Origin: Clostridia bacterium | GTDB taxonomy: Bacteria; Bacillota; Clostridia; UBA1212; UBA1255 | DNA length: 64,000 nucleotides | Direction of reading: 5' to 3' | NCBI GenBank assembly: GCA_016287565.1 | Contig: JAEFAM010000006.1 | Coordinates: forward strand, 1 to 64,000 | Part shown: positions 1 through 44,762 of the stretch, in pieces | How positions within the stretch are numbered: position 1 is the stretch's first letter | How the letters are laid out: each line of letters begins with the position of its first letter | The notes under the pieces: generated by a model | Databases searched by the model: none | What the model was told of the DNA's origin: nothing | Seen by the model: the letters and a program-made list of their open reading frames with translations, nothing else | Translations under genes and position numbers: made by a program

Positions 1-790
1 CCGAGCTAAATTGCTCGCTGGCGCTCACAACTAAATTCGTCCTGCGGCCGAGCTAAATTCGGCTGCGCCGAGCTAAATTGGATCCTGCGGATCCAGCTAA
101 ATTCCGCTGCGCGGAGTAATGTTCGCACTAACGTGCGAGTGATATTGCGCGCGTTGCGAGCAGGGAACCGCTTCCTTCGCTCGTACCAAGGGATTTGCTC
201 TGTCTCGAAGTGGAAGGCAAGGAAAAAACACCCATGATTTACTGCTTACCCCCGGATCCTTGGGCGTTTAAAAAGAAGCGGCGCTGTCTCTTAAGCCGCG
301 AAAAGCAAGAAACGCCCATATTTTGCCGTTTGTCTCGATTTTCTGGGCGTTTTGGAAGAAGCGGCGCTGCCTCTGAAGCCGCAAATGAGCGAGAAACGCC
401 CAGATTTTGCCCCTTTACCCGGATTTCTTGGCGTTTGGAAGGAGGTTGCACCGCCCGACAATAAAAAATGAGCAAGAAACGCCCGGATTTTGCCCCTTGA
501 CCCGGATTTCTTGGCGTTTGAGAAGAAGCGGCGCTGCCTGACAGCTTAAAATGAGCGAGAAATCAAATCCACCTTCGCTCATCCGCAGGACGAATTTAGC
601 TGAAAGCCATCGGCTTTCAATTTAGCTGCCGCAAAGCGGCAATTTCGCTCACCCGCAGGGTGAATTCAGCTGATCGAAGGTCAATATCGCTCACCCGCAG
701 GGTGAATTTAGCTGAATCCTGAAAAAAAGACAAACCATCAGGATTCAATATCACTCCGCGCAGCAGAATCTCACTCCCCCCTGGCACAAA
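1..790. repeat. Composite hairpin-mosaic repeat, copy 1
   Basis: No gene is supported in the first 900 bases. Positions 1-180 are a chain of short GC-rich inverted repeats separated by the linker AGCTAAATT or variants such as GTGATATT. Positions ~222-560 hold four diverged ~80-bp units, each with AAACGCC and GGCGTTT arms about 30 bases apart and the phrase GCGCTGCC. Positions ~590-790 are again small hairpins, but the linkers are reversed (AATTTAGCT, AATATCACT). The whole is therefore roughly palindromic around the central units. The same plan, with the core in opposite orientation, recurs at 41600-43030. ORFs running through it follow the repeat periodicity and are not credible genes. Confidence 0.8.
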
Positions 791-40148: not shown

Positions 40149-40192
40149 AAACCCGTTGCCGGAGCATTCGCGGCGTGAGAAGAGGTCGAAAT

Positions 40193-41599
40193 ATGATGCA
40201 AGGATCCACCAAAACGAAGACGGCCGTCAGGTTGTTTGCGCTGATGATCGCTTTATTGACCGTGGCGGCGGCAACAGCCTGCGGGAGAGGTCCCATACAG
40301 TCCGGCGACGTTGACCAGTCCAAAACGGTCAGCGATCTGTCAATAAGAGGGAGGATCACTTTCTCTGAGACGAATATCGGTTCTGAGGAGGACACGCTGG
40401 CCTCCCGGGCCATCGTAAAAGCCTTCGAAGCCGCGTTTACGGGCGTCGAAGTCATATTCGAAGAGGCCGCCAGATCCACGTTTACCACCAGGATCTCCGC
40501 CGGAGACATTGGCGACGTGTTCTGGGGCGACGAAGCGGACATGTACAATTTCCACAAGATCCACAACGCAGTAATGCCTCTGGACTCGTACATTCAGCCC
40601 CTGAACATCGACCTGGGGGACGTGTACTCAGGAGCCCTCGACACGGGCAAATCAGACGGCCGCCTCTATATGGCGCCCAGAAACATCGGAGAGCACATTA
40701 TGACGTACAACGTCGATATGCTCACTGCGGAAGGCATCGCATACGACGGCATCGAAGCCCTTGACTGGGAGACTTTCAAATCCTATTGCAAAATGCTCAC
40801 CAAATTCGACGATTCAGGCAAGGTCACCCAGACCGGTTCGTCAATGAAGATATACTGGTATCCGGTTTGGCAGGTGTTTTTCCGCGGTTTCGGCGGCACC
40901 TGGATCGATCCCGTAAAGCACACCGTTTCGATAGTCGACAACACCGAAGTCATGCAGGGGCTGAATGAGATGCTCGCAGGCGTCACCGAAGGCTGGATCT
41001 ACCCCGAAGACTTTGCCTCCGGCATCACCGGCGAAGTCTCCACGATGTTCAGCCTCATCTCCAACGACAATTTCTCTACCGCCTGCTTCAAGACTTTCGG
41101 CGACCTCAGCGGCCTTAATTCCGTGGGCAACGCCTACGACCGCCTTAACGTGGCCTGGGATTTCTGCCCCTTCCCGGCGCTTCCCACCCACACCGTCTCC
41201 ACTGGCGCCACCGGCTATATGGTGTACAACAGGACGGATAATCCCGACACCGCCGCCGCTTTTGCGCTGTTCTTCCTGACGCCCGACGGCCAGCGCGCCT
41301 ACCACAGCCAGGCCGGGGGCAACGTCCCTCTGCTGAAATCTCTTTCCGAGGAGACCTTCTGGAAGGGCAAGGGTACGGTCTGGACCGACAAGAACTACGG
41401 CGCTTTCGTCTCTTACCCCGAACTGACGCGCCCCGCCTCGGTGGACGTCCAGGCCCCCGGCGAGATCGCCGCCCTGTTCAACGGCGAACATATGAAAGAG
41501 GCGCTGTCAAAGATATTGTCCGGCAAAGCCGACGCCAACACCGTCTTCTCTAAGATCCAGACCGAGGCCAACGAGAAGTGGTCGCTGATCTACGAGTAA
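40193..41599 (+). CDS. Extracellular solute-binding lipoprotein, family 1 (paralog 2)
   Basis: I start at ATG 40193, seven bases behind GAAGAGGT, though an in-frame GTG lies at 40175. The lipobox Cys is about residue 30 (AATAC). Throughout it mirrors paralog 1: PIQSGDVDQ, IVKAFEAAFTGVEVIFEEA, SAGDIGDVFWGDEADM, MAPRNIGEHIMTYN, WQVFFRGFGGTWID, FCPFPALPTHTVSTGATGY and GQRAYHSQAGGNVPLLKSL. Clearly a duplication followed by divergence of the ligand loops. Its own promoter suggests separate regulation. The gene ends directly at a hairpin-mosaic array. Confidence 0.85.
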   Translation: MMQGSTKTKTAVRLFALMIALLTVAAATACGRGPIQSGDVDQSKTVSDLSIRGRITFSETNIGSEEDTLASRAIVKAFEAAFTGVEVIFEEAARSTFTTRISAGDIGDVFWGDEADMYNFHKIHNAVMPLDSYIQPLNIDLGDVYSGALDTGKSDGRLYMAPRNIGEHIMTYNVDMLTAEGIAYDGIEALDWETFKSYCKMLTKFDDSGKVTQTGSSMKIYWYPVWQVFFRGFGGTWIDPVKHTVSIVDNTEVMQGLNEMLAGVTEGWIYPEDFASGITGEVSTMFSLISNDNFSTACFKTFGDLSGLNSVGNAYDRLNVAWDFCPFPALPTHTVSTGATGYMVYNRTDNPDTAAAFALFFLTPDGQRAYHSQAGGNVPLLKSLSEETFWKGKGTVWTDKNYGAFVSYPELTRPASVDVQAPGEIAALFNGEHMKEALSKILSGKADANTVFSKIQTEANEKWSLIYE

Positions 41600-43030
41600 T
41601 GTTCCGCTGCGCGGAGGGATATTCGCCTGTCGGCGAGTGAGATTGCGCATACTGCGCAGTGATATTCGTCCTGGCGGACGAGTGATATTGTGCTTCGCAC
41701 AGTGATATTCGCCTGTCGGCGAGTGAGATTGCGCATACTTCGCAGTGATATTCGTCCTGGCGGACGAGTGATGTTCCGCTTCGCGGAGTGATGTTCGCGC
41801 TGACGCGCGAGCTATGGCCGCCTGACGGCGAGTGAGATTGCGCATACTGCGCAGTGATATTCGTCCTGGCGGACGAGTGATATTCCGCTTCGCGGAGTGA
41901 TGTTCGCGCTGACGCGCGAGCTATGGCCGCCTGACGGCGAGTGAATTTGTTCGCTGTCGCTCACAGCTAAATTGCCGCATTTGCGGCAACGAAATTGAAA
42001 GCCGGTGGCTTTCAGCTATATTCGCACTGCGGATGAGCGGAGGTGGATTTGATCTCGCGCTCATTTTAAGCCTCAAGGCAGAGCTGTTTTCTTAGAAACG
42101 CCCAGGAATTCGAATAAAGCGGTAAATTGTGGGCGTTTTGCGCTCATTTCAAGCCATCAGGCAGCGCTACCTTCTTCAAAACGCCCAGAAATCCAGAAAA
42201 AGTGGCAAAAAATGGGCGTTTTGCGCTCGTTTCAAGCTTGCAAGGCAGAGCATCCTTCTTTAAAACGCCCAGAAATCCGGGAAAAGTGGCAAAAACCGGG
42301 CGTTTTGCGCTCGTTTCAAGCTGCGAGGCAGAGCAACCTTCTTCAAAACGCCCAGAAATCCGGGAAAAACGGAAAATTGCGGGTGTTTTTCATTCATCTA
42401 CCTCTTCGAGACAGAGCAAGGTCCCAGATATGAGAGAATGAAGAGATCGATTTCCCCGACCGAAGGGCGATTTAGCTTGCCGCAGTGCGAATATCACTCG
42501 TCCGCAGGACGAAAATCACTCACTTGAAAGTTGAATAATACTCGGCGAAGCCGAATATCACTGAACCCTGACAATTCCGTTTAAACTGTCAGGGTTCAAT
42601 ATCACTTGCTCACCCGCAGGGTGAATTTAGCTGATCGAAGGTCAATTTAGCTGGATCCGCAGGATCCAATTTAGCTGAAAATCGCGGGCTCCATTGTCCT
42701 TGGAAGCCTGCGGTTTTCAATTTCGCTACTCGCAACGCGGGCAATATCACTCCACGCAGCGGAACATCACTCGCATGTTAGTGTGAATATCACTCCACGC
42801 AGCGGAACATCACTCGTCCGCCAGGACGAATATCACTGCACGCATAGCGCGCAAAATCACTGAACCCTGACAATTTCATCGAAACTGTCAGGGTTCAATC
42901 TCACTCGCCGTCAGGCGGCCATAGCTCGCGCGTCAGCGCGAATTTAGCTCGACGAAGTCGAATGTAGCTGTGCGAAGCACAATTTAGCTGCGTGCCCGGC
43001 ACGCAATTTAGCTGAGACCGCCAGGTCTCA
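41600..43030. repeat. Composite hairpin-mosaic repeat, copy 2
   Basis: These 1.4 kb between two convergent genes hold no gene. 41600-42040 is a chain of about 20 hairpin modules (for example CGTCCTGGCGGACG, GTGCTTCGCAC, CGCCTGTCGGCG, GCGCATACTGCGC) linked by AGTGATATT or AGTGAGATT. 42055-42440 has four ~85-bp units with AAACGCCC and GGGCGTTTT arms and GCGCTC, the reverse complement of the core units at 222-560. 42450-43030 is again hairpin modules, with reversed linkers AATATCACT and AATTTAGCT; one module has 12-bp arms (TGAACCCTGACA/TGTCAGGGTTCA). The modules begin one base after the stop of the forward gene and end just after the stop of the reverse gene. Confidence 0.85.
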
Positions 43031-43035
43031 CCGTC

Positions 43036-43959
43036 TTATTTCTTCTTCTTTTTCGCGATCAGGATGCCGCAGACGACGGCGGCGACAAGGACCACGGCGG
43101 CAACGATACCGATGATCAGACCGGTAGAAAGACCTTTGTTGTCCTTGGCCTGGTCGTCAGCCTTGTCGGTTGCGGCGGGAGCGTCGGTCGCAGGAGCGTC
43201 GGTTGCCGGAGCTTCGGTGGCGGGAGCATCGGTTGCCGGAACTTCCGTAGCAGGAACTTCGGTTGCCGGAACTTCCGTAGGCTCGGCAGGAACGTCGGTG
43301 GCGTCCGCAGGAGCGTCGGTAGCGTCGGCGGGCTTGTCGGTGGGATCAGCGGGAGTCGTTCCTTCGGCGTCGTAGATGATCGTCAGAGCAACGCCGTCCT
43401 CGGAGCGGGTGTTCTGAGCCACGTACTCGACGTCGAACTCGGCGTCGTCATCCGCAGGGGCGCCCTGGGCGATAACGATGTAAGCGCCCTCTTCGGTAAG
43501 CTGGGTGACTCTGAAGCAGTAGCGGCCGGCAGGCTGCTGATCGAACTCCCAGACGAAACCGGTGTTGTCCTGGTCGCAGGTCATGTTGAGCAGCACGACG
43601 GCGTCCTCGGACTTGTAGTCCTCGCCGTAATTGTTGTCAACGGCCTTGAACAGCGCGAACTCGACGTCGCAGGGAACGATGCCGCCGAAGTTGTTGGGGT
43701 TGCCCGCCCAGTAGGGAACGGCAATGGCGCTGAAGGGTTTGGCGGCGGTGAAGGTGGCCGCGACGTAGTAACCGTCAGAGAAGCATTCCCATTCGTTGCC
43801 GCCTACGTTTGCAACGGTAGCGAGCCAGAAGCCGATCTCGGCGCCTTCGGTAAGCTCGTAAACGTCGGCCGGTTCCTCGGCCTCTTCAGCCATTGCCGGA
43901 ACGGTGAGCATCGAGAGCGCGAAAATCATCGCCAGAGCCAGTAAAATGATCTTTTTCAT
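43036..43959 (-). CDS. Secreted, membrane-anchored protein with Pro/Ala/Thr stalk
   Basis: Start is ATG 43959 behind AGGAGA; a longer frame to 44094 overlaps the upstream gene and is rejected. The 307-residue protein has a cleavable signal peptide (ends TVPAMA, ~24), an extracellular domain of ~165 residues with two Cys (ECFSDGYY, MTCDQDN, WEFDQQPAGRYCFRVTQ) that looks like a beta-sandwich, then a repetitive stalk (PATEVPATEVPATDAP and similar, about 60 residues), one TM helix and a basic AKKKKK tail. This is a cell-surface display layout without an LPXTG motif. Binding partner unknown. It follows the ThuA-like gene in the same direction. Confidence 0.75.
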   Translation of the reverse strand: MKKIILLALAMIFALSMLTVPAMAEEAEEPADVYELTEGAEIGFWLATVANVGGNEWECFSDGYYVAATFTAAKPFSAIAVPYWAGNPNNFGGIVPCDVEFALFKAVDNNYGEDYKSEDAVVLLNMTCDQDNTGFVWEFDQQPAGRYCFRVTQLTEEGAYIVIAQGAPADDDAEFDVEYVAQNTRSEDGVALTIIYDAEGTTPADPTDKPADATDAPADATDVPAEPTEVPATEVPATEVPATDAPATEAPATDAPATDAPAATDKADDQAKDNKGLSTGLIIGIVAAVVLVAAVVCGILIAKKKKK

Positions 43960-44012
43960 AATAGTACATCTCCTGTTTTGTTTATGATCAGTCCCGTCAA
44001 CGGGAATGAAGA

Positions 44013-44762
44013 TCAGAAATTGTCGGTGAGCTTGTAATCCACCATCGGGGCGCTGTCGGGGACCGTGTAGCCGATCTCGGCGGGGGCGGCCCATTTGACG
44101 CCGTTTTTGATTATACGCTGGACGTATTCGTTATAGAATGATCTGCAATATTCGTGCCCGGGCTGGAAGTAGAAGACCTTGCCGGCGCCGCGGTAATAGC
44201 ACAGTCCGGAGCGGAAAATGAATCCGTCCTCGAACCACGAACCGAAAACCAGTTCGTCGGGCTGGGGGATATAGAAGGGCTCGCAGTAGAGCTCTTCGAA
44301 CAGGTCGAAGTGATCGGGTATCCCGGCGGCAATGGGATGCGCAGGAAGCAGATTCCAGACGATCTCATGCTGGTCGCGTCCCCAGGAAAGGTTTCCGTTG
44401 GTGCCTACCACCGACCGGAACACTTTGGAATGGTGGCCGGAATGCAGCACCACCAGGCCCATCCTGCCTTTGTACACTCTGTCGCGGATACGCTCCACCA
44501 GATCGTCGGGCACTTCGTGATGGGCAAGATGTCCCCACCAGATAAGCACGTCGGTGGCGTCAAGCACTTCCGGCGGCAGGCCGTTCTGATCGTCGTCCAG
44601 GGCCGCTAAACGGACGTTTAAGGCGGGGTCTTCGTCAAGGAAGGATTTTATCAGTCCGTGGATCCCGTTGGGATAAATGGCCCCTACGGCCGCTTCAAAC
44701 CGTTCGTGGCGGTACTCGTTCCACACGGTAACGTTGATCTTTTTTTCGCAATTCTTTTCCAT
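44013..44762 (-). CDS. ThuA-like protein (trehalose-utilisation family)
   Basis: I choose ATG 44762 (GGGAGAA site) and not the longer frame. The 249-residue protein has the class I glutamine amidotransferase-like fold of ThuA: VTVWNEYRHE at the start, ATDVLIWWGHLAHHEVPD, GMGLVVLHSGHHSKVFR-type strand, HPIAAGIPDHFDLFEELYCEPF, and YYRGAGKVFYFQPGHEYCRSFYNE near the end. ThuA proteins act on trehalose or related sugars or 3-keto-glycosides; the exact reaction is unsettled. It is 53 bases upstream of the surface protein gene. A weak TTGCAT-17-TACCAT reverse promoter lies near 44930-44960. Confidence 0.8.
   Translation of the reverse strand: MEKNCEKKINVTVWNEYRHERFEAAVGAIYPNGIHGLIKSFLDEDPALNVRLAALDDDQNGLPPEVLDATDVLIWWGHLAHHEVPDDLVERIRDRVYKGRMGLVVLHSGHHSKVFRSVVGTNGNLSWGRDQHEIVWNLLPAHPIAAGIPDHFDLFEELYCEPFYIPQPDELVFGSWFEDGFIFRSGLCYYRGAGKVFYFQPGHEYCRSFYNEYVQRIIKNGVKWAAPAEIGYTVPDSAPMVDYKLTDNF

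Follow-up and report, generated by a model that had tools for sequence, protein, structure and literature searches.

A hairpin-linker element between two convergent genes

The window, a 64-kb stretch of DNA from the genome of a Clostridia species (2.65 Mb in 143 contigs), contains two elements built to a single plan. In each, an array of short hairpins joined by linkers is followed by a core and then by a second array with the linkers in reverse orientation. The second element, near 42 kb, lies between two convergent protein genes. Parsing of the sequence gave the following features:

40175..41599, + strand: left neighbor, gene for an extracellular solute-binding protein, full length
41595-43024: whole element, second of the two
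41595..42022, +: left hairpin-linker array with 18 linkers of the GTGATAT and GCTAAAT types
42023..42468, +: core of about four tandem units, spacing 83-84 bp, AAACGCCC...GGGCGTTT
42469..43013, linkers in - orientation: right hairpin-linker array with 20 linkers
43036..44094, - strand: right neighbor, convergent gene for a secreted membrane-anchored protein
1-790: copy 1, whole element
4..146, +: left array of copy 1 with 7 linkers, possibly cut, since the contig starts where the window starts
147..570, -: core of copy 1, inverted relative to the 42-kb copy
571..775, -: right array of copy 1 with 9 linkers

The TAA stop codon of the solute-binding protein gene, which ends at 41599, sits inside the first linker of the array, AGTAATGTT at 41595. 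The stop codon of the facing gene lies approximately 20 nt beyond the end of the last array unit. In the closest relative (G006, same genus, another species), the orthologue of the left neighbor shows 74% identity and the same end point. After this stop codon the relative has ordinary sequence and no array, and its right neighbor differs.

The initial annotation had described the 42-kb element as a mosaic whose linkers flip around a core of four ~85-bp units, and copy 1 as having the same plan with the core inverted. Our parse confirmed the mosaic build and the flip (+ array, core, and - array at 41595-43013), recovered about four tandem core units, and placed the core of copy 1 in the orientation opposite to that of the 42-kb core. 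The 84-bp core unit (42057-42397 in the window, plus related loci) has the inverted ends AAACGCCC...GGGCGTTT. About a dozen further sites in the genome, between or beside arrays, have cores related to that of the window.

Conserved pairing and a 7-nt unpaired linker

Parsing of the window together with the first 37 fetched loci yielded 454 units, among which 261 hairpins and 61 stems were distinct. The stems averaged 3.93 uninterrupted Watson-Crick pairs, compared with 0.53 in shuffled hairpins and 1.58 in a control in which the 3' arms were dealt among hairpins of the same length. Pairing also extends into the linkers: base 9 pairs with base 1 of the next linker (T-A in 435 cases, C-G in 5), and a T→C change was accompanied by A→G in 5/10 versus 3/444 cases (Fisher p = 9e-8). 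Compensatory change had been named beforehand as a check on the claim that structure and not sequence is conserved. The claim withstood it, the stems remaining self-complementary despite their changes in sequence. By these counts, it is evidently the nucleic-acid structure that is conserved, with almost free sequence.

Since the outer linker bases co-vary and pair, the unpaired linker between neighboring hairpins is 7 nt long. The linkers are nearly constant, as first described, but the unpaired part is GTGATAT or GCTAAAT and not a 9-mer. A 7-nt gap was by far the commonest in the other arrays of the genome (195/308), and it was seen in 23/48, 28/47, and 8/14 cases in three sets from other genomes. 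The ATGAATT set has a 5-nt gap because its outer bases can pair too. A CRISPR-like array was ruled out, as the "spacers" are hairpins from a shared repertoire and not unique sequences devoid of self-complementarity.

Number, polarity, and placement of the elements in the genome

Counted from the fetched loci, the genome contains at least 46 hairpin-linker elements. Close tandem pairs of AGCTAAATT-type linkers occur 114 times, compared with none for the reversed pattern, so the arrays are not due to chance. For close pairs of AGTGATATT, the corresponding numbers are 89 and 0. The arrays reach up to 25 continuous units, and multi-unit blocks are often duplicated in tandem. All 14 elements of this genome that possess both arrays show the order + then -, and the reverse was never observed.

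The arrays are intergenic, and many of them start no more than 40 nt from a stop codon. The 42-kb element had initially been read as spanning precisely from the stop of one gene to that of the convergent gene. For this copy the reading holds, apart from the short gap before the facing stop, but it does not hold as a general rule. When placement relative to stop codons was tabulated genome-wide with crude ORF-based gene calls, 7/39 elements with two flanking genes had a convergent placement, compared with 57/248 neighboring pairs in the background. A general preference for convergent genes was thus ruled out, and ten elements sit between two gene starts. These data bear on the proposal that the arrays are 3'-end devices, i.e., bidirectional terminators or mRNA stabilizers after genes. 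It would agree with the intergenic position close to stop codons and with the compact elements of other genomes (see below), which often follow tRNA or gene terminators. However, only a minority of the elements have convergent genes on their two sides, the compact elements adjoin an existing terminator and would thus add little, and the link to a protein family reported below would be left unaccounted for. We regard a 3'-end function as highly improbable.

The genome also carries three RAYT-like Y1 transposase genes ringed by GGGGACAG repeats (G000:C131:127375, C96:15767, and C22:13434; loci L089-L091), and inverted GGGGACAG repeats enclose several hairpin arrays (L033, L034, and L037). Both observations could be taken in favor of REP/BIME-like palindromes that are moved by REP-associated tyrosine transposases (RAYT, Y1_Tnp). 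Indeed, the arrays share with BIME/REP, BOX, and other mosaic palindromes that they are intergenic, mosaic, hairpin-forming, and dispersed. However, it is GGGGACAG repeats rather than arrays that surround all three Y1_Tnp genes, and PF01797 was not enriched class-wide in genomes with arrays (22/31 vs. 211/360, p = 0.25). REP recognition, moreover, rests on sequence. The conserved palindrome next to a tetranucleotide that characterizes REP was not found here; instead, 61 different stems are combined with a constant linker, which is the reverse of REP. With no association either in this genome or class-wide, mobilization by RAYT was rejected, and we judge it to be quite unlikely.

Relation to the Rfam family Gut-1

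A covariance-model search of the window yielded four matches to Gut-1 (RF01706) of 54-81 bits, above the gathering score of 50:

41657..41734, +: 80.9 bits, three consecutive array hairpins
41743..41843, +: 56.2 bits
41852..41929, +: 60.6 bits
42739..42838, -: 54.3 bits

Four further matches along the element scored 32-36 bits. In its original description, Gut-1 is a noncoding RNA of three hairpins that had been seen solely in human-gut metagenomes (PMC2864571, Weinberg et al. 2009/2010). The initial annotation knew no standard name for the element, but a part of it had already been catalogued. Common to both are hairpins joined by GUGAAAU-like linkers. The window array differs from Gut-1 in being open-ended, dispersed, tied to a gene family, and Clostridia-wide, including MAGs from sheep and goat gut.

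According to Rfam and Weinberg et al. (2010), each three-hairpin run would be a stand-alone structured RNA, namely a Gut-1 small RNA gene, and the arrays would be repeated RNA genes. The scores above the gathering threshold and the covariation of the hairpins are in line with this view, and Gut-1 has been listed as certainly RNA and most likely an expressed noncoding RNA (PMC2864571). However, a discrete three-hairpin unit was not found in the arrays, where the units continue unbroken and do not halt at three. The loops also speak against RNA. On the strand reading AATATCACT, three-base loops of this genome were c(GNA)g in 157/228 cases and four-base loops c(GNNA)g in 88/113, with C-G as the loop-closing pair in 332/341. 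This polarity favors the strand opposite to the one modeled in Rfam. The GNNA loops comprised 79 GNYA and 9 GNRA, the latter being what stable RNA tetraloops would favor. Loops from other genomes and other linker types had the same polarity (GNA 36/59, GNNA 30/55, complementary type 0), and GNRA was nearly as frequent as GNYA (14 vs. 16); RNA, too, has GNRA and GNA loops. Wobble pairs showed no strand preference, with 16 G.T on one strand and 19 on the other, so that a G.U asymmetry was not apparent. GNA and GNNA loops with G-C closure form extraordinarily stable DNA mini-hairpins (PMC4686876). We read the loop types and the lack of a wobble strand bias as evidence for a DNA form. With moderate confidence, the loops appear to fit DNA better than RNA, in the form of ssDNA or a cruciform. 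A stand-alone RNA is unlikely, and the unbroken run of units indicates that the Gut-1 model is a slice of longer arrays, not an RNA gene of its own.

Arrays in other Clostridia and in viral contigs

Pairs of AGTGATATT were detected in 31 of 391 Clostridia genomes and 28 of 222 genera, including a few chance matches in which the spacer forms no hairpin (G037, G139, G193, and G405). A control pattern gave about five matches in all. The hairpins of other Clostridia are rich in A+T or in G+C, matching their genome. A scan of genome contigs with an exact hairpin pattern, a probe too narrow to describe the distribution, retrieved only two ruminant-gut Clostridia MAGs. In other genomes we observed compact elements of ~230 bp, each made up of two oppositely oriented half-arrays plus a terminal hairpin. 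They are often located 3' of tRNA or gene terminators, and often directly behind a tRNA gene and its terminator (L073, L083, L085, L087, L179, L185, L225, and L229).

Viral spread was discarded as an explanation, as the 75 pattern matches in IMG/VR included only about two real hairpin arrays. On one IMG/VR contig (L098), a phage-type head-tail connector gene has a compact element at its 3' end, which is possibly a prophage insertion.

Association of the arrays with IVP genes

In many genomes, the arrays flank genes of family PF05635 within about 50-170 bp. This family, the 23S rRNA intervening sequence protein (IVP, S23p), is present in 112 of the same 391 Clostridia genomes, i.e., in 24/31 genomes with arrays and in 88/360 without (p = 6e-9). 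At a minimum of seven sites in six GTDB families, an IVP gene is oriented away from a neighboring AGTGATATT array, with 53-69 bp between the array end and the gene start. Seven GTGAAAT/ATGAAAT loci have Gut-1 matches immediately 5' of the IVP gene. A 7-mer occurred at least five times in the flanks of 45/87 IVP loci, compared with 3/77 control stretches further out (p = 2e-12); as some loci had been chosen for their arrays or IVP genes, such proximity counts are not a random sample, which is partly offset by the control flanks and the class-wide tally. By the tests used, roughly one in four sampled IVP genes had no array, which counts against the arrays being parts of an IVP element.

The linkers at IVP loci are of the GTGATAT, GCTAAAT, GTGAAAT, ATGAAAT, ATGAATT, and other types. 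When mapped onto a tree of 51 IVP proteins, the five linker types named here require 5 changes (minimum 4), whereas host family needs 25 for the same 34 rows. Thus, linker and protein were inherited together and hosts were exchanged. On this tree, each linker type has its own IVP clade, and host family does not track the IVP proteins. A stretch of 620-640 bp that includes the PF05635 gene is conserved at 82% within unrelated flanks in two families, and near-identical IVP units of 530-650 bp sit in different flanks. A search with the flank of one compact IVP unit revealed no usable empty site. In compact units, the IVP promoter is situated past the array, which is therefore not part of the IVP mRNA. 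This is a further argument against the stand-alone RNA.

The inheritance pattern also bears on a neutral satellite, in which slippage would expand the units and template switching during replication would keep the palindromes perfect, without any protein. In its favor, multi-unit tandem duplications are common, and polymerase slippage has been named as the cause of the excess of heptameric repeats noted in bacteria (PMC4692102). The model leaves unaccounted for, however, the constant linkers between free hairpins, the linkers common to distant families, and the co-inheritance of linker and IVP together with the fixed inward polarity. We consider it improbable.

In the genome under study, an intact IVP gene (G000:C140:10851-11153) is flanked by two arrays of one type, AGCTAAATT/AGCGAAATT, the first in + and the second in - orientation. 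The IVP of this genome is a protein of 120 aa. The 7-mer AGCTAAA is present in 7 copies upstream (+) and 4 copies downstream (-), i.e., inverted on the far side as in IVS elements. Hairpins of these arrays recur in the window, where both copies lack a PF05635 ORF and the array geometry is kept. The linkers at this IVP gene are GCTAAAT/GCGAAAT and not the GTGATAT common in the window, a difference that counts against an IVP element as the source of the window copies. The second IVP gene of the genome (C49:46004) has tandem AAATGGC-type 7-mers, inverted downstream. On balance, we think that the window copies are probably non-autonomous members of a selfish element that, when complete, carries the gene for the IVP (PF05635, S23p, a four-helix-bundle protein).

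Heptamers at IVP genes beyond the arrays

In other phyla, homologues of PF05635 annotated as "four helix bundle protein" are found on plasmids of Treponema, Bernardetia, Euhalothece, Nostoc, and Planktothrix, with tandem 7-mers upstream and the inverse downstream. Repeats were present in 9 of ten loci, a set in which two were faecal phage contigs that carry hairpin arrays. Strong tandem periodicity was detected in 26/96 IVP loci, with a lag of 7 or 14 in 23 of the 26, compared with 0/80 control flanks. One Clostridia genome contains four identical IVP genes within 23S rRNA genes, with 7-mer repeats on both sides; these repeats (L174-L177) are of the GAAGTTA/GAGGTTA type. On the Bernardetia plasmid (L266), the tandem 7-mer TTAGTGA is a cyclic form of the heptanucleotide GTGATTA from Helicobacter pylori (cited in PMC4692102), and it resembles the window linker AGTGATATT.

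In Coxiella, the S23p ORF is preceded by a variable number of tandem heptamers (GACAGAT), and the IVS has been called a selfish element (PMC4990558). The elements with an IVP gene belong to the same protein family as the 23S rRNA IVS of Leptospira, Coxiella, and others, in which tandem 7-mers likewise precede the ORF. The window element differs from the IVS in that both window copies lie between protein genes instead of in rRNA, the 7-mers are separated by hairpins, and most copies are devoid of the ORF. The heptameric repeats of Nostoc, Xanthomonas, and Calothrix (STRR), among them GGGAATC in Xanthomonas and GGGGATT in Nostoc, share the 7-nt unit but have no hairpins between the units. It is on plasmids of Nostoc, Planktothrix, and Euhalothece that tandem 7-mers were seen in inverted order around four-helix-bundle genes. 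No paper linking heptameric repeats to IVP was found in a literature search that fell short of most subscription journals. A survey from 2023 newly associated 23S rRNA IVP with CRISPR adaptation modules, without these arrays (PMC10910872).

A candidate role for IVP

PF05635 proteins are without known function (PMC4990558). If the window copies do derive from an IVP-encoding element, an oligomeric IVP would recognize its own 7-mer on single-stranded nucleic acid, with one 7-mer per site. The hairpins would fold out the DNA between the sites, thereby holding the 7-mers single-stranded and at regular spacing. Because the loops fit DNA better than RNA, the recognized form may be ssDNA or a cruciform. 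Binding of IVP may tag the element for copying by a host enzyme or another one, and copies that lost the IVP gene would spread in trans. The solved relative 2RLD has five chains, and the Xanthomonas protein was reported to be a homopentamer (PMC4990558). An enzyme for array movement was not found, the Y1 transposases not being associated with the arrays. The core has no explanation under this model and counts against it.

More tentatively, we propose that single-stranded 7-mers are bound in a sequence-specific manner by IVP/S23p proteins, which would define one very widespread class of bacterial selfish elements. Gut-1, the rRNA IVS, and over-represented heptamers (cyanobacterial STRR and others) might all be recognition arrays, the hairpin form being a DNA-level way to keep the 7-mers single-stranded. 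This proposal would join Gut-1, the seven-letter repeats of many bacteria, and the orphan family PF05635 into one testable system. The orphan family would gain a directly testable candidate ligand, the Rfam RNA family would become one component of a DNA repeat, and there would be an alternative to slippage as the cause of the unexplained bacterial excess of 7-bp repeats.

At most loci of the GCTAAAT and ATGAATT classes, a different gene (NUDIX-like, methyltransferase-like, kinase-like, and others) follows the IVP gene at a distance of 2-48 nt (L180, L181, L184, L204, L207, L208, L213, L214, L219, L247, and L248). It looks as though the IVP unit either integrates immediately ahead of genes or picks them up.
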